Part shown: positions 16,769 through 52,996 of the stretch, in pieces | Layout of the letters: every line of letters starts with the position of its first letter | Position numbering within the stretch: the stretch's first letter is position 1 | Source of the DNA: Labilithrix sp. | GTDB taxonomy: Bacteria; Myxococcota_A; Polyangia; Polyangiales; Polyangiaceae | Assembly (NCBI GenBank): GCA_019637155.1 | Contig: JAHBWE010000027.1 | Location: 1-64,000 of the forward strand | Reading direction: 5' to 3' | Length of the DNA stretch: 64,000 bases | Position numbers and translations under genes: made by a program | The notes under the pieces: model-generated | Told to the model about the DNA's origin: nothing | Seen by the model: only the letters and a program-made list of their open reading frames with translations | The model's database searches: none

Positions 16769-19447
16769 TCAGTGCAGCTCGCCGACGAGCCAGGCCTGCG
16801 CGGGGACGAGCACCTCTTCGGGTGACGCGCCGCCGGTGCGGATGTGTCCGCGCCGATCGATCGTGAAGCCGTGGTCGCCCACGATGAAGAGGAGCGTGCG
16901 TGGAGCGACGGTGGTGAGGTGGCGCGCGATCGCCTCCGCGACCGACTGCGCGATGCCGGGGAGCTCGTGCACGGCGTTCGCGCCGGCGGCTTCGAGAAGG
17001 GAGGGGACGAGGTCGAGCTTGTAGACCTCGCGCGAGCCGACGCGCAGGCGGCGCACGGCTTCGGCGGCGCGGCCGCGCAGCGACTCGGAGGCTTCTTCGC
17101 CGGCGGGAGCGCGGAGCGCGTCCATGCCGCGGGCGAGGGTCTCGAGCTGTCGCATCGTCGTGGTGGGGAGGGCGCTCCAGAGCATCGTCTCGGCGCCGAG
17201 CGAGGCGACGCCGGCGGTCTCGCGCGCGAGCGCGTCACGGACCATCGCGCCGACGTCCCAGCGGAGCGAGTCGACGAGGAGCACGTGGGCGGAGCGCGCG
17301 CCGACGAGGCGAGCCTGCTTGGAGGCGAGGTCGAAGGCGTCCATCACGAGGCGTGGTCGCCGGTTCGTGGCCCCGAACGTCGTGAACGCGTCGGTATACG
17401 ACCGCTCGAACGAGCGTCGAAACTCGTCGAACGCCCGCAACGCACGCGGATCGTCGAGCCCCCCCGCGATCGCGTTCGCGAGCGGCACATAGCTCTCTGC
17501 AAAGAGCCGCTCGAACGCCGCGAGCGGCTGCGCCCCCCGCGCCGCGGCGAGCGCAAGCACCCAGCTCCGCCAAGCATCGTTCGCGACCGTAGCCTCCGGC
17601 ACCCCCACCGTCGCACTCCGCGCAGCCTTCCTCCGCCCCCGCCCCTCGCCACCACGCATAGCTTCACCCTCACGCGCGGTCGCAGCCTCACGCGTCATCA
17701 CCACATCCCGCGCCGCTTCGGTCTCGCGCGCGGTCTTAGCGTCACGCGTGGTCACCGCGTCCCGCGTCGCTTCGGTCTCGCGCGCGGTCGTAGCGTTGCG
17801 TGCCGGGTCGGTCTCACAAGCGGTTGCAGCCTCATGCGTCTGTTCGGCGTCGTCGCGAGTAGGCGCAGCATCGCGGGTCTGTTCCGCCTCATGCCGGACC
17901 TCGACGTCGCGCATCTGTTCGACATCGCGAGTGGTCGCGACCTCACGAGTGGTCGCAGTGGTCGCACCGTCGCGAGTGGTCGCGACCTCACGAGTGGTCG
18001 CAGTGGTCGCACCGTCGCGAGCCATCGCGGCCTCGTGAGCGGTCGCAGTGGTCGCAGCGTCGCGAGCCGCAGCGTTGCGAGCGGTTGCAGCATCGCGAGC
18101 GGTTGCAGCATCGCGAGTCTGTTCGGCGTCGCGCGTCTGTTCGGCCTTGCGAGTAGGCACATTGTCGCCCGTCTGTTTCGTCCCCTGCGAGACCTCGACG
18201 TCGCCCGTCTGCCCGGCGCCGCGTGTGGTCGCGGCGTCGCCCGTCAGTTCGGCGCCGCGCGTGGTCGTTGCGTCGCGTGTGGTCGCGGCGTCGAGCGGTG
18301 CTGCTGGGACGGCGAGGCTGGGGCGGCGTGTTCGCGGGCGGGGCATCGGGCCGCGCGATTCGACGATCGGCTCCGCGACGCATACGGAAGGTGCGAGCGC
18401 GAAAGGCTCCGCCGACCCGGCGGCCAGCTCCTCGCGCGGCCCGGCCTCGGCGGCGGAGGCCGCCATTGCGACGTCGAGGCGAACCTCGATCGACGCGAGC
18501 GCGGCCGTGATCTCGGTCGCGTGTTCGACGCGCGCCTCATGCGACGCGAGCCCGGTTGTGATCTCGGTCGCGGCTTCGACCCGCGTCTCGATCGACGCAT
18601 CGGCGACCGAGGCCTCCGTCGCGGCTTCGATGCACGCGGTCGCTGCCGCGATCGCTGCTTCGCTGCGCGCTTCGAGCGGAATGGGCGCGTCTGCGCCCGT
18701 TGCCGCCGTCGCGGCTTCGATGCGCGTCTCCAGCGACGCGGGCGCTAGGTGTACCGTGAGCGGCTCCGGGTCGACGAGCGTGATGCGCTCTGGCTCCGGG
18801 ATGGTGACGGGATCCGAGTCCGGCGCGGAGACGATCGCCTCCGCGACGTCGATCGAGATCGCGACGCTCTCGATCGCGGTCGCGTCGTCACCTGTGAGGA
18901 GCACGGGCGGCTCCTCCCGCGTCGCGATCGCTCCGAGGAGATCGTCGAGGCGGCGCGGCGCGGCGTATGCCGTGACGGCGATGTCCGCGTCGTCGATCAT
19001 CAGGACGAGCGGGAGCGCGGTCGTCGACTCGGCGAGCCAGCGGAGGAGCGCGCTGTCGTCCGGACAGAGCGACGGCGCCGCGATCGCGCGGAGCGTCCCG
19101 AGGCCGATCGCGATGCCGCTCGCGCCGACCTCCTGCGCACGAAGGAGCTGATCGGCGAGGCGCGCCGTCGCCTCGTCCGGCATCGCCGTCCACGCCGCGA
19201 GGTAGGGCGAAGGCGCGCCGGCGCGCGCGAGCTCGCGCTCCACGAGCTCCTCGAGGAGCGAGCCGAGATGACCGCGGACGTGCGCCGTAGGAGGCGGCAT
19301 CTGCACGAGCAACGCCCCCGCGCCGAGCAGCTCGATGCCTCGCTGCTCCTGTGCCTCCTCACTGAGGAACGAGACCTCACCCGAGAGCGGGAGGACACGC
19401 GGCGTCGTCGCAGGGATGCGAGCGTACTCGAGCGGCACTTGCAGCAT
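16769..19447 (-). CDS. PglZ-like (alkaline-phosphatase superfamily) protein with repeat-expanded middle
   Basis: 892 aa from ATG 19447. An upstream in-frame ATG at 19561 would read 38 residues out of partial repeat copies and is disfavoured. Residues 1-220 form an alpha/beta domain (PLVLMIDDADIAV, PPVLLTGDDATAI). Residues about 220-640 are low-complexity: first Glu/Ala/Ser, then degenerate repeats of TRDA/TREV type, with a 15-residue unit ATTATTREVATTRDG occurring twice. The C-terminal 260 residues look like PglZ: LLVDSLRWDVGAMV, the WSALPTTT motif and FIVGDHGFTIDRRGH, which supply metal-binding Asp/His. PglZ proteins occur in BREX and other systems, but no BREX partner is nearby. Function unknown. 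Confidence 0.75.
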   Translation of the reverse strand: MLQVPLEYARIPATTPRVLPLSGEVSFLSEEAQEQRGIELLGAGALLVQMPPPTAHVRGHLGSLLEELVERELARAGAPSPYLAAWTAMPDEATARLADQLLRAQEVGASGIAIGLGTLRAIAAPSLCPDDSALLRWLAESTTALPLVLMIDDADIAVTAYAAPRRLDDLLGAIATREEPPVLLTGDDATAIESVAISIDVAEAIVSAPDSDPVTIPEPERITLVDPEPLTVHLAPASLETRIEAATAATGADAPIPLEARSEAAIAAATACIEAATEASVADASIETRVEAATEITTGLASHEARVEHATEITAALASIEVRLDVAMAASAAEAGPREELAAGSAEPFALAPSVCVAEPIVESRGPMPRPRTRRPSLAVPAAPLDAATTRDATTTRGAELTGDAATTRGAGQTGDVEVSQGTKQTGDNVPTRKAEQTRDAEQTRDAATARDAATARNAAARDAATTATAHEAAMARDGATTATTREVATTRDGATTATTREVATTRDVEQMRDVEVRHEAEQTRDAAPTRDDAEQTHEAATACETDPARNATTARETEATRDAVTTRDAKTARETEAARDVVMTREAATAREGEAMRGGEGRGRRKAARSATVGVPEATVANDAWRSWVLALAAARGAQPLAAFERLFAESYVPLANAIAGGLDDPRALRAFDEFRRSFERSYTDAFTTFGATNRRPRLVMDAFDLASKQARLVGARSAHVLLVDSLRWDVGAMVRDALARETAGVASLGAETMLWSALPTTTMRQLETLARGMDALRAPAGEEASESLRGRAAEAVRRLRVGSREVYKLDLVPSLLEAAGANAVHELPGIAQSVAEAIARHLTTVAPRTLLFIVGDHGFTIDRRGHIRTGGASPEEVLVPAQAWLVGELH
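17650..18300. repeat. Coding degenerate repeats within the PglZ-like gene
   Basis: Short units built around GTCGCG and GCGAGTGGTCGC recur in register with the reading frame. The clearest is a 45-bp unit seen twice in a row near 17930-18030. Other units of about 21 bp encode (T/A)RD(A/V)-type heptads. The frame is preserved throughout, so expansion has been by whole codons. The region will be prone to length change and assembly error. Confidence 0.8.
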
Positions 19448-19497
19448 GCCCGATGTGTCGCCAACTCCGAGCCCAATGGCCCACTTTCCAGCAAACC

Positions 19498-19636
19498 GGC
19501 CCCAGAAGCCGCGGTCACGAAGCGCGAGTGTTGGGTCGGCGGCCCCAGAAGCCGCGGTCACGAAGCGCGAGTGTTGGGTCGGGGGCCCCAGAAGCAGCCG
19601 CGGTCACGAACCGCGAGTGTTGGTTCGGGTTGTGCC
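19498..19636 (+). repeat. Three partial tandem copies of the structured element's 5' part
   Basis: Units starting GGCCCCAGAAGC(C/A)... recur at about 19498, 19541 and 19585, each followed by GCGGTCACGAA(G/C)CGCGAGTG and then the next unit, about 43-55 bp apart. They carry the left arm and the GAA-loop region of the element but not the terminal hairpin. They directly precede full copy C, as if 5' ends had been repeatedly duplicated. Confidence 0.8.
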
Positions 19637-19739
19637 GGGGCCCCAGAAGCGGCCGCGAAAGCGGTCGCGAAGCGACCCTCGCGCTCCGCGCGAGGGCCGT
19701 GTCTGGGGTGGGGTGTCGGGGCGAAGCCCCGACGTTGAC
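19637..19739 (+). repeat. Structured interspersed element, copy C
   Basis: Outer stem CCCCAGA (19641-19647) with TCTGGGG (19703-19709). Inner hairpin GGTCGC-GAA-GCGACC (19663-19677), then CCCTCGCGC-TCC-GCGCGAGGG. Terminal hairpin GTCGGGGC-GAA-GCCCCGAC (19716-19734) and end CGTTGA. With copy E it brackets the Cys-rich lipoprotein and PglZ-like genes, 5' ends facing inward. Confidence 0.87.
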
Positions 19740-20029
19740 CTGATTGACGCGTTGCGGTCCGGTTCCTACGCTTCGTTGGTTCCCTCTGCCGGTCTCGTGC
19801 TTGTGGTTTTCATGATCCCCTTATGTATGTGAACCAGGGAGGCAAACGATCGCTCGTTGTGCACGCCGGACCATCTCTCACGAGCTCTGGATAATTCGGA
19901 AGCCTGAAGCGCGATCCGCGTCGCCCACCTAGCCTACGGGCTAGGGGTTCATGACAATCCGCACACGGACCAAGCGGTACGGAATTTTTGGCGGGCCTCG
20001 CGCGGAAGCGAAGAGGCCCGCTGCCTATT
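19740..20029. other. Intergenic region of about 290 bp with two small hairpins
   Basis: No gene seen. CCTAGCC-TACG-GGCTAGG forms a 7-bp stem at 19928-19945. GCGGGCCTC (19991-19999) and GAGGCCCGC (20013-20021) form a 9-bp stem just past the stop of the diheme gene. The second is followed on the minus strand by CAAAAATT rather than U's, so it is not a textbook terminator. The stretch 19745-19870 is unusually A/T-rich for this genome. No tRNA cloverleaf was found. Confidence 0.45.
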
Positions 20030-34910: not shown

Positions 34911-36818
34911 CTACGGCTCCGACTGGATGAAGAGCTCGTTCGCGACGGTGTCGACATCGGTGTCGCGCGAAGCGGTCTCGACAAGCGCGACGAGGCCCGC
35001 CTCGCCCGGTGCCGCTGCGACGAAGTTGGTATCGTCCGCCGCGACGGGTGCCGCGTCGACGGGAGCCGCTGCGGCGTGGGCTGCGACGAAGCCGGCATCG
35101 TCTGCGTTCGTCGTGACGGGGGCCGCATCGGCGCGTGCCGCGGCGTGCGTTGCGAGGCCCGCCTGGGGTGCCGCGTGCGGTGCGACGAGGGATGCATCGG
35201 CGCGTGGCGCTGCCGTGTCCACTGCTACGAGCGCGATGAGGCCGGCATCGGCGCACGCCGCTGCGGCGTCCGCTGGGACGACCGCGACGAGGCGGCCGCG
35301 ATCGAAGAGACGCCGCTCGATCGCGCGTGCGAGCGAGGCCGGCACCTCTGCGACAAGACCGCGCTGACCGAGCCGCGCGCGCCGCTCCTCGACCGACACC
35401 ACGCCGCGCGCCGCAGCGACGTCGCGTGCGGTTGCGTAGTCGCGCGCCGCAGCGACGTCGCGTGCGGTTGCGTAGTCGCGCGCCGCAGCGACGTCGCGCG
35501 CCGCAGCGACGTCGCGCGCCGCGGCGGCGGCGGCGCTGCGGAGCATGCCGGCGGCGACGGTGTCGTTCGTGCGTGTGTCGATGACGATGAAGGCGCCGGT
35601 CGTGCGGTTTCTTGTGTAGGGGTCGAACGTGAGCGGGGCGCGTGCGCGGAGTTGCACGCGCGCGATCGCGTTGAGGCCGAGCGGCTGCGGCTGCGGCTGC
35701 GACGGGGCCGCGTCGAGCTCTGCGCGTACGGTGCGCGTCGTGTGCTTCACGAGGTAGACGCGACCGCGCTCGAGCGGGCGCTCGCTCATCCATACCAGGT
35801 CGGCCTCGAGGAGGCTGGCGCTCTCCGGGAGATCGTCGGGGTGCGCGAGGAGGTCGCCGCGGCTCACGTCGATCTCGTCGCCGAGGCGCAGCGCGACGCT
35901 CTCGCCCGCCCCCGCGCTCGCGACGCTGCGGTCGCCGACGTCGATCGCGACGACGCGCGCGCGCTTCCCCGAAGGGAGGGCGACCACCTCGTCTCCCACC
36001 GCGATCGTGCCCGACGCGATGCGGCCCGCGAAGCCGCGGTACGAGAGGCCGGGCCGGATGACCAGCTGCACCGGCATGCGGAAGCCCGTCGCCGCCGGCG
36101 CCGCGGCCGGCAGCGTCTCGAGCCGCTCGAGCAGCGTCCCGCCCGTCCACCACGGCATGCGCGTGCTCGCCGCGACGACGTTGTCGCCCGCGAGCGCGCT
36201 CACCGGGATCGCGGAGAGCGACGGCAGCCCGACCACCGCGGCGAGCGCGTCGAGCTCCGCCACGATCGCGGCGAAGCGCCCTTCGTCGAAGGCGACGAGG
36301 TCCATCTTGTTCACGCACGCGACCACGTGCGGGATCCCCAGCAGCGCGGCGATGCGCGCGTGGCGCTCCGTCTGCTCGATGACGCCGAGCCGCGCGTCGA
36401 CGAGGATGACGGCCGCGCCGGCGGTCGACGCCCCCGTCGCCATGTTGCGTGTATACTGCACGTGGCCGGGGGTGTCGGCGATGATGAACTTCCGCCGCGA
36501 CGTCGTGAAGTAGCGGTACGCGACGTCGATCGTGATCCCTTGCTCCCGCTCCGCGAGGAGGCCGTCGGTGAAGAGCGAGAAGTCGATCTCCGACGCCGAC
36601 GCGCCCACCCGCGTCGCGCCCCTCGCCGACGCGCGACGAACGGCGTCGAGCTGATCCTGGTAGAGCCCGTGCGCGTCGTGGAGGAGCCGCCCGATCAGCG
36701 TCGACTTCCCGTCGTCGACCGAGCCGATCGTCACGAAGCGAAGGATCTCCTTCTCTTCTTGAGCCTGGACCCACTCGTGCAACGCGTCCGCGCTCGTCGT
36801 CGTCCAACGCAAGGCCAT
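34911..36818 (-). CDS. cysN: Sulfate adenylyltransferase GTPase subunit CysN fused to a decayed CysC domain
   Basis: 635 aa. With CysD it makes APS from sulfate and ATP, driven by GTP hydrolysis. G1 GSVDDGKST (32-40), G3 DTPGHVQYTRNM, G4 NKMDL and CysN family motif TTRTVRA / YTRNRTTGAF are intact. After residue about 430 comes an Ala/Arg/Asp repeat, then APS-kinase-like sequence: VSVEERRARLGQRG, VPASLARAIERRLFDRGR and CADAGLIALVA. Family members read GLPASGKSTLARA..., so the GKST of the P-loop is missing, and the LDGD motif is gone. The tail is Ala/Pro-rich. CysN activity likely, APS kinase not. The start TGATG overlap with cysD shows coupling. Confidence 0.9.
   Translation of the reverse strand: MALRWTTTSADALHEWVQAQEEKEILRFVTIGSVDDGKSTLIGRLLHDAHGLYQDQLDAVRRASARGATRVGASASEIDFSLFTDGLLAEREQGITIDVAYRYFTTSRRKFIIADTPGHVQYTRNMATGASTAGAAVILVDARLGVIEQTERHARIAALLGIPHVVACVNKMDLVAFDEGRFAAIVAELDALAAVVGLPSLSAIPVSALAGDNVVAASTRMPWWTGGTLLERLETLPAAAPAATGFRMPVQLVIRPGLSYRGFAGRIASGTIAVGDEVVALPSGKRARVVAIDVGDRSVASAGAGESVALRLGDEIDVSRGDLLAHPDDLPESASLLEADLVWMSERPLERGRVYLVKHTTRTVRAELDAAPSQPQPQPLGLNAIARVQLRARAPLTFDPYTRNRTTGAFIVIDTRTNDTVAAGMLRSAAAAAARDVAAARDVAAARDYATARDVAAARDYATARDVAAARGVVSVEERRARLGQRGLVAEVPASLARAIERRLFDRGRLVAVVPADAAAACADAGLIALVAVDTAAPRADASLVAPHAAPQAGLATHAAARADAAPVTTNADDAGFVAAHAAAAPVDAAPVAADDTNFVAAAPGEAGLVALVETASRDTDVDTVANELFIQSEP
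35405..35535. repeat. Coding 18/36-bp repeats in cysN linker
   Basis: GCGCGCCGCAGCGACGTC units, some followed by GCGTGCGGTTGCGTAGTC, are repeated in frame and encode AAARDV and AAARDYATARDV. About six to seven units. The placement at the CysN/CysC junction suggests that replication slippage lengthened the linker as the CysC domain decayed. Confidence 0.85.
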
Positions 36819-52784: not shown

Positions 52785-52798
52785 TCAAGGAACACGCC

Positions 52799-52891
52799 TG
52801 GGCCCCAGAAGCTGCTGCGGCAACGCCCCCGCGAACGCGCCTGGGCAAGGGCGCCCCAGCAGCAGCTGCGGCAACGCCCCCGCGAGCGCCC
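52799..52891 (+). repeat. Two partial tandem copies of the structured element's 5' part
   Basis: GGCCCCAGAAGCTGCTGCGG and then a second unit beginning CCCCAGCAGCAGCTGCGGC about 55 bp on, both followed by CAACGCCCCCGCGA(A/G)CGC. They carry the left arm but no terminal hairpin and directly precede full copy D, as at copy C. Confidence 0.8.
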
Positions 52892-52996
52892 GGGGCCCCA
52901 GAAGCGGCCGCTCCAGCGGGCGCGAAGCGCCCCGAGCGCGCAGCGCGAGGGCCGTGTCTGGGGTGGGGGTGTCGGGGGCGAAGCCCCCGACGTTGA
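52892..52996 (+). repeat. Structured interspersed element, copy D
   Basis: Outer stem CCCCAGA (52896-52902) with TCTGGGG (52957-52963); inner hairpin GGGCGC-GAA-GCGCCC (52918-52932); terminal hairpin GTCGGGGGC-GAA-GCCCCCGAC (52971-52991); end GTTGA at 52996. The btpA ATG lies 10 bases past its end, so the element effectively occupies the whole leader of btpA. Confidence 0.88.

Follow-up and report, generated by a model that had tools for sequence, protein, structure and literature searches.

What does a PglZ-like protein do when it stands alone in a bacterial genome, away from the partner genes of bacteriophage exclusion (BREX)? The question is raised by a gene of Labilithrix sp. (Polyangiaceae) that lies on the minus strand, at positions 16769-19447, of a 64,000-nucleotide stretch of DNA (assembly GCA_019637155.1, contig JAHBWE010000027.1, positions 1 to 64,000; hereafter the window). 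A preliminary description, which gave no strand, had recognised PglZ landmarks at the C-terminus, an unfamiliar N-terminal domain and a repeat-expanded middle, and had proposed a defence or signalling component of unknown type. The 892-residue product is composed of an N-terminal domain, a linker, and a PorX-like helical bundle with a PglZ domain. We are fairly confident that it is a regulator with a PorX-type module that serves outside defence and, with somewhat lower but still favourable confidence, that it is a regulatory protein which the Polyangiaceae have passed on by vertical descent and which acts on or senses short oligonucleotides.

Results

The C-terminal part is predicted to fold as a PorX-type module

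The C-terminal helical bundle and PglZ domain, which belongs to the alkaline-phosphatase superfamily, occupies residues 621-892 (16772-17587, minus strand) and contains all three landmarks listed in the preliminary description, LLVDSLRWD, ALPTTT and GDHGF. These exceed chance, since residues D123, T161, D255 and H256 of the domain (numbered over 16772-17638, minus strand) are kept across the 76 sequences of alignment A4, from which L142, L144 and L145 were omitted. An AlphaFold2 model of 289 residues, built with 76 sequences, reached a predicted local distance difference test score (pLDDT) of 92.7 and a predicted template modelling score (pTM) of 0.88. Foldseek returned 17 matches to this model at E≤0.001, every one of them PorX, a response regulator of the type IX secretion system (T9SS), with E from 1.5e-7 (8tef_D) to 8.8e-6. 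Likewise, VIA-align placed nine PorX entries at Z 18.6-19.5 over 256-271 aligned residues (best row 8tff_B, Z 19.5, 266 aligned, 4.1 Å), followed by the BREX PglZ 9zn5_B at Z 13.6, the remaining rows shown having Z≤9.5. The alignments begin at PorX residue 101-108, and helices lie at positions 18-88 of the model; the match therefore includes the three-helix bundle of PorX. Hence, both a fold of the PglZ and nucleotide pyrophosphatase/phosphodiesterase (NPP) type and the PorX arrangement of a bundle before the PglZ domain were found.

Family models score low on the same protein. Pfam PF08665 (PglZ) matches it with E 0.031 and 14.7 bits, below the gathering score of 25, and reaches E≤1 in 28 of 38 homologue sequences, with a best E of 1.9e-5; among the NCBIfam models of BREX PglZ (NF033450 and others), BREX_PglZ_1_B gives 18.5 of 400 bits, below its curated cut-off. 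The PglZ-like nature of the C-terminus is thus upheld by the fold searches, despite a Pfam score under the cut-off. Pfam scans of the whole protein and of the N-terminal domain contained no CheY receiver. We also searched the phylum with NF052313 as a source of PorX comparators; it matched in every genome, with no score above the cut-off among the seven candidates scored per genome, and the matches listed fall within the receiver (query positions to ~206 of 513), so that PorX in the phylum was neither supplied nor excluded in this way.

The protein shares with PorX the helical bundle, the PglZ fold, the Thr nucleophile and the ligands of the first zinc (Zn1), and in both proteins a C-terminal output module stands behind an input domain. 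It differs in having an input domain other than CheY, a shorter stretch from the DHG motif to the last motif, an eroded second zinc site (Zn2) and a long repeat linker. With the BREX PglZ proteins (types 1-6) it shares the PglZ domain of the alkaline-phosphatase superfamily, whereas it has no BREX genes nearby, has mostly lost the last His, is a core gene of its family and matches their fold less well (Z 13.6).

The nucleophile and first zinc site are kept, the second is eroded

Residues were mapped to PorX through alignments with Protein Data Bank (PDB) entries by way of canonical PglZ proteins. In PorX of F. johnsoniae (PorX-Fj), Zn1 is bound via T271, D237, D414 and H415, and Zn2 via D360, H364 and H499 (PMC10951265). 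Asp726 (D123; codon 17270-17272, minus strand), the equivalent of the Zn1 ligand D237, is D in 75 of the 76 sequences and N in one. Thr764 (T161; 17156-17158, minus), equivalent to the nucleophile T271, is T in 73 and S in 3, and Asp858-His859 (D255 and H256; 16871-16876, minus), equivalent to the Zn1 ligands D414/H415, are invariant (76/76 each). The Thr nucleophile and the Zn1 ligands are thus in place.

This is not so for Zn2, where two of the three ligands (D, H/E, H) are lost. The one left is Asp812 (17012-17014, minus), kept in 75/76 sequences, which by motif spacing and its strand-helix position probably corresponds to PorX-Fj D360. Four residues further on, where PorX has His and most BREX PglZ have Glu, the window protein has Ser, and 74 of the 76 sequences have Ala, Ser or Gly. 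Thr871 (16835-16837, minus) occupies the position of the HGG-motif His that binds Zn2 (H499 in PorX-Fj, H741 in PglZ of E. fergusonii), as judged from profile alignments and the VIA end points; the sequences most often have Gln here (44), followed by His (10), Ser (9) and Thr (5, including the window). In the 12 canonical PglZ proteins of relatives, D, T, D, DH and the last His are kept throughout (12/12), and the +4 residue is Glu in 10, His in one and Lys in one.

PorX and E. fergusonii PglZ cut cyclic as well as linear oligonucleotides (PMC12205998). In the E. fergusonii enzyme, the H741A mutation, which mimics one of the natural ligand losses described here, left cyclic hexaadenylate (cA6) still opened but without further products, and gave more nicking and less linearising, while T538A was inactive (PMC12205998). 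Because of this behaviour of H741A against the inactivity of T538A, the natural protein possibly makes single cuts with one metal, or else serves as a sensor of oligonucleotides. Whether catalytic activity is retained in some form appears to us evenly balanced.

The gene is a core gene of its family and appears to follow its lineage

In the following, f1 denotes the family of the gene's own genome, and f2, f3, f6 and f8 denote other families. The gene was found in 60 of 96 relatives (52/59 in f1, 5/5 in f8 and, weakly, 3/5 in f6) and in none of 27 genomes from other families of the order. A profile search over the class matched 61 of 240 genomes, namely 51 of f1, three of f8, four of f6 and three weak matches elsewhere; at least five f1 and at least two f6 genomes were without a match, 159 matchless genomes standing outside those itemised. 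In the own genome (10.1 Mb, 46 contigs) there is one match to the gene. The nearest named relatives are metagenome-assembled genomes of Labilithrix sp. (74-76% in the C-domain), followed by Polyangium, Sorangium and Minicystis, among others. In a gene tree of 38 rows, the own genus forms one clade (100/97), f8 forms another (100/100), and family labels change the least possible number of times, with L064 on a long branch. From distribution and tree together, the gene looks inherited with its lineage. In genome G024, the final ~64 residues of the PglZ-like domain are matched once more near the full gene (L046:8771-8971).

For brevity, alignment A2 omits 14 of the 40 fetched neighbourhood loci, all of which are in A1 (L049 and L051, whose frames of ~1,610 residues were taken as over-extended, and L042, L046, L050, L052, L058, L062, L063, L065, L067, L069, L070 and L071). 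Alignment A3 omits nine of 70 N-domain hits (L099, L104, L106, L108, L115, L139, L143, L145 and L146) as partial, weak, in very long frames, or for no strong reason.

The distribution bears directly on the proposal that the protein is a defence component, that is, a stand-alone or domesticated BREX-like nuclease acting on phage DNA. PglZ is indeed a BREX nuclease (PMC12205998, PMC12839542), the best family scores of the protein, weak as they are, fall to BREX PglZ models, and the class holds BrxC-like ATPases with a compact C-terminal PglZ domain. Yet the gene is near-universal in its family, its tree groups by family, and searches of most other families of the order did not find it. The BREX-type PglZ, in contrast, is patchy, exceeding the PF08665 cut-off in 11 of 58 relatives (BrxB, too, in 11 of 58). 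On these grounds, and given that descent appears vertical, the neighbours are housekeeping-like and the metal site is eroded, we regard a defence role as improbable. In the own genome, neither a BREX-type PglZ above the Pfam cut-off nor BrxB was found.

The three weak class-wide matches outside f1, f8 and f6 comprise one BREX-type PglZ and two DUF6079/BrxC-like ATPases. The latter (L203:145-4143, plus strand; L204:3972-7961, minus strand) are BREX-related single-chain fusions of an ATPase with PglZ in the same class. Like the protein studied here, they combine an ATPase part with a compact C-terminal PglZ domain and have ~12 residues between DHG and xGG; unlike it, they measure at least 1,330 residues, have a recognisable ATPase (DUF6079 and BrxC models) and keep the HGG His.

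The N-terminal domain and the linker

The open reading frame starts with an ATG at 19447, and its stop codon ends at 16769. A GTG at 19561, the alternative mechanical start, would give 930 residues; we prefer the ATG because homologues of the own genus share that Met start in alignment A2. The N-terminal domain covers residues 19-175 (18923-19393, minus strand), and its AlphaFold2 model (194 residues, 62 sequences) reached a pLDDT of 87.8 and a pTM of 0.78. Thirteen chains reached Z≥8 in VIA-align, Cdc6/ORC and RdrA foremost and Hda and an archaeal AAA+ ATPase among the others; the best Z was 8.7, and the program cautions that top values of 7 to 8 are often seen. Thus, ORC/Cdc6 and other AAA+ ATPases are the best structural matches, near noise level, and in contrast to them the N-domain showed no Walker A or Walker B motif on reading the sequence. 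No relevant hit came from PDB sequence searches with profiles of the N-domain.

The f6 homologues align to this domain (hhalign probability 83, E 8.8e-6) and, read by eye, hold a P-loop-like remnant and a Walker-B-like acidic strand; in Pfam, the three of them matched neither AAA nor PglZ. With moderate confidence, we read the N-domain as an inactivated, Walker-less domain of the AAA+/STAND type. This gives a tentative assignment to the alpha/beta domain earlier described as unfamiliar. BrxB was considered as its family and rejected, there being no profile similarity (hhalign probability 1.4 against 12 BrxB of relatives), which also counts against a defence role. Most Type-4 BREX PglZ proteins carry an N-terminal inactive STAND domain (PMC12839542); hence the architecture has a parallel, one that speaks for the defence proposal.

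Between the folded parts of the window protein lie 444 residues of low-complexity linker (residues 179-622; 17582-18913, minus strand), rich in A, T, E, R and P. Several tandem-repeat rows within 17669-18598 account for its previously noted "TRDA/TREV" look and bear out the idea of a repeat-expanded middle. In 66 homologues with a detected N-domain, the linker measures from 9 to 423 residues (median 157) and is rich in A, P, E, S and D; at corresponding positions, the repeats of L032 differ from those of L033. What the repeat has expanded, specifically in this lineage, is a loose tether, and the linker is fast-evolving and probably disordered.

The ratio of non-synonymous to synonymous substitution rates (dN/dS) for the congener pairs L032-L033 and L032-L034 is ~0.11 and 0.18 in the C-domain, 0.22 and 0.26 in the N-domain, and 0.54 and 0.67 in the linker. 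For the pair of the window and L032, the ratio is ~0.22 in the C-domain, 0.65 in the N-domain and 0.41 in the linker, the last figure resting on an unsure alignment of repeats with a dS of 1.7. Therefore, the C-domain is firmly constrained, and the N-domain less so in its own lineage. A further array of 18/36-bp tandem repeats lies at 35401-35526 of the window, which suggests that such expansions are perhaps common here.

Protein neighbours change between genera

For the neighbourhood survey, genes were roughly called in the window and in 40 loci; names beyond the Pfam names of the window are readings of translations. Protein neighbours vary between genera: in the own genus, purE/purK and a lipoprotein-like gene lie near the PglZ-like gene, and elsewhere a penicillin-acylase-like gene or the cluster F5-F6-F13-trxB-UDG is found there. 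The commonest neighbouring protein family, an AMP-dependent ligase, occurs in 14 of 41 neighbourhoods. Among 10 flanking proteins scanned, none was encoded by a BREX gene (BrxC, PglX or others), and the sole PADLOC hits for the same 10 were two RT-Protease_XI models on one trypsin-like protease. The survey and PADLOC thus agree with the earlier description of a stand-alone gene without BREX partners, and the defence proposal gains nothing from the neighbours beyond this protease hit.

The purE/purK genes could argue for an ordinary phosphatase of a metabolic pathway, one of two outcomes, together with a conserved metabolic context, that the preliminary description had itself set against its proposal. 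Housekeeping-looking neighbours do occur, but they change between genera (PurK in only 12 of 41 neighbourhoods), while a 6S RNA gene is present in most loci, and PorX ranked far above the metabolic members of the superfamily in the fold search. We therefore consider a metabolic phosphatase highly improbable.

A divergent 6S RNA gene is the most frequent neighbour

Upstream of the PglZ-like gene and divergent from it, Rfam places a 6S RNA (RF00013; 19780-19984, plus strand) with 53.9 bits against a gathering score of 46.4 (E 1.2e-8), the sole 6S match among the matches listed for the own genome. Sixteen of the 6S RNAs have a common fold of closing stem, large central bubble and terminal stem, in which 20 of 32 pairs show compensatory change; the covariation term of this consensus is -2.81 kcal/mol. 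Both the score and the 6S-type structure thus identify the RNA.

A profile search seeded with five Rfam hits found 6S-like RNA in 67 of 118 loci, including 24 of the 40 neighbourhood loci (overlapping sets; counts over L032-L071 and L072-L149 are not independent, because their source genomes overlap). With Rfam alone, 4 of 11 scanned loci passed the gathering threshold. Among 78 named loci, the RNA lies upstream on the opposite strand in 40 (within 500 bp in 32) and downstream in 3; it was not found in 23, and 12 had too little upstream sequence. No 6S RNA was found close by in those Sorangium and Polyangium loci that had enough upstream sequence. Genome-wide, 6S RNA was detected in 80 of 96 genomes at E≤0.01, in 42 of them over the gathering score, and it seems widespread in the order. 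Of the 60 gene-bearing genomes, 50 also yielded the RNA. In 30 of these, spanning 19 genera, the RNA lies no more than 5 kb from the matched C-domain (upstream and divergent in 28, downstream with the same orientation in 2); in six the two are farther apart on one contig (13.7, 15.0, 17.4, 20.8, 617 and 988 kb), and in 14, including the three f8 and the three f6 genomes, they are on different contigs.

The region between the two genes contains a putative 6S promoter and a conserved element on the side of the PglZ-like gene. A sigma70-like promoter for the 6S RNA was read by eye at 19744-19772, plus strand (TTGACG, 17 bases, TACGCT), where a strict promoter scan listed none; GTCAA, the complement of part of this promoter, and AAANTGGGCC are kept in 10 of 10 aligned upstream regions. 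On the gene side, a promoter-like element GAAAGTGGGCCA-N12-TTGGCGA (19458-19488, minus strand) ends about 10 bases before the ATG, with the conserved element GAAANTGGGCCA ~42 bases before it. The element scores at least 17 in 43 of 66 upstream regions (shuffles: mean 0.9, maximum 3; random 100-mers: 27/3000), and 37 of these 43 lie at -47 to -39 (shuffles: mean 0.1); since the consensus came from the very upstream regions counted, only the position and the controls carry weight. A search for a regulon sharing the element did not reveal one: within the own genome, strict and relaxed patterns matched the PglZ-like gene only, and the relaxed one, applied to 38 relatives, matched in 28 genomes, mostly at scattered places.

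In the window, the gap between the 6S promoter and the gene element is widened by an insert (19498-19738) that is not present in four aligned congeners. It consists of 43-bp tandem repeats (19498-19629) carrying GGCCCCAGAAG cores and a dispersed repeat of ~103 bp (~19635-19738), which has at least 50 further aligned rows in the own genome (best 40 of 358 candidates scored). The elements earlier suspected on both sides of the gene thus come down to this dispersed repeat and the 6S RNA gene, both upstream, and no mobile gene was recognised. An array resembling the 43-bp repeats lies at 52790-52905 of the window.

It is conceivable that the protein is a partner of 6S RNA, trimming or sensing the ultrashort product RNAs (pRNAs) that RNA polymerase synthesises on it or tuning the 6S level, with the genes placed back to back through a shared divergent control region. 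The close placement in 30 of the 50 genomes with both (28 of them divergent), across 19 genera, would fit such a role, as would the presence of a 6S-like RNA in 24 of 40 loci, where the commonest protein family reached 14 of 41 neighbourhoods, and the common fold of 16 of the RNAs. PglZ domains cleave short linear oligonucleotides (PMC12205998), and in B. subtilis 3'-exonucleases affect pRNA levels (PMC12005410). Against this stand the 6S RNAs on other contigs in f8 and f6 genomes, the two f1 chromosomes in which 617 and 988 kb separate RNA and gene, the many 6S-bearing genomes of other families that have no PglZ-like gene, and the observation that E. fergusonii PglZ left MS2 RNA uncut (PMC12205998). 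Moreover, in f2 and f3 genomes the 6S RNA adjoins F6 where no PglZ gene was found (L217, L218, L234), and we accordingly rejected adjacency as proof of function. In three f1 genomes, too, the RNA lies beside F5/F6, with the PglZ gene 3.7 kb off (G033) or on another contig (G034, G028). By our own reading, F6 is a membrane sensor-like protein; it is a second recurrent 6S neighbour, outside the gene's family. A block F6-F5-6S-PglZ is thus possibly ancestral and slowly breaking up, and because the arrangement may be plain ancestral synteny, we rate a coupling of the two at the level of function as unlikely.

A precedent for a protein gene beside 6S RNA is the ssrS-ygfA pair of gamma-proteobacteria, conserved for reasons not known in 2010 (PMC2848244); that protein is unrelated and co-transcribed with 6S RNA, whereas the PglZ-like gene is divergent from it. 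Among the titles and abstract openings listed by searches of open-licence literature on PglZ and on 6S RNA in myxobacteria, none dealt with a pairing of the two.

Discussion

Of the two roles first proposed, defence has lost ground, and signalling is plausible and now the favoured reading. We envisage that the Walker-less AAA+/STAND-type N-domain is probably an input or binding module that would set when the PglZ domain acts, and that the fast-evolving linker would tether it to the PorX-type output module. The PglZ domain would bind and probably slowly cut short oligonucleotides with one metal, where PorX and BREX PglZ use two; alternatively, it may have turned into a ligand-sensing pseudo-enzyme. 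The setting would be growth-phase or transcription control, and not phage defence.

Several observations weigh against a regulator that acts on or senses oligonucleotides and is maintained by its lineage. Seven of 59 family genomes are without the gene, among them G030 and its congener G268, each a single contig, which indicates that the gene is dispensable. The fold match of the N-domain is weak (Foldseek best E 0.012; VIA best Z near the noise level of which the program warns), and its dN/dS of ~0.65 between the window and L032 means that constraint is not strong in the own lineage. Finally, in the three f6 homologues that were read, the Zn1 site has itself lost its first Asp, its Thr and its His; with these losses and the Zn2 site largely gone, the protein may have no activity and serve a structural role alone. 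The f6 proteins (L055, L056, L057), with an AAA-like N-domain and a PglZ domain minus the catalytic Thr and the Zn1 residues, are apparent pseudo-enzymes.

In its strongest form, this objection holds that the protein is a catalytically dead scaffold, an adaptor in which both enzymatic centres are lost. The missing Walker A and B motifs, the loss of two of three Zn2 ligands and the f6 proteins all fit such a scaffold, but a dead site would hardly need a nucleophile and Zn1 ligands that are held in 73-76 of 76 sequences, and we find this alternative doubtful, though somewhat less so than a 6S partnership.

Within the regulatory reading, the most specific proposal would be a PorX-type 6S partner with one metal and an inactive AAA+ input domain, its gene and ssrS being expressed from a common divergent control region. 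By removing or sensing oligonucleotides the size of pRNAs, it would link the release of RNA polymerase from 6S RNA to the growth state in Polyangiaceae, and its domains would have arisen by domestication of a BREX-related ATPase-PglZ fusion. As a whole, this chain is slightly less probable than the 6S partnership by itself, and we put it forward as speculation.

In summary, BREX defence and the T9SS regulator PorX are the known contexts of PglZ domains, and a stand-alone gene that belongs to the core of a lineage is a further setting for them. What is new in this PglZ protein is a different input domain together with a natural partial loss of the metal site, which therefore offers a natural experiment on the role of the second metal. 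If the adjacency to 6S RNA is functional, the protein would be a dedicated 6S partner in one bacterial family, for which the fate of product RNAs could be tested.

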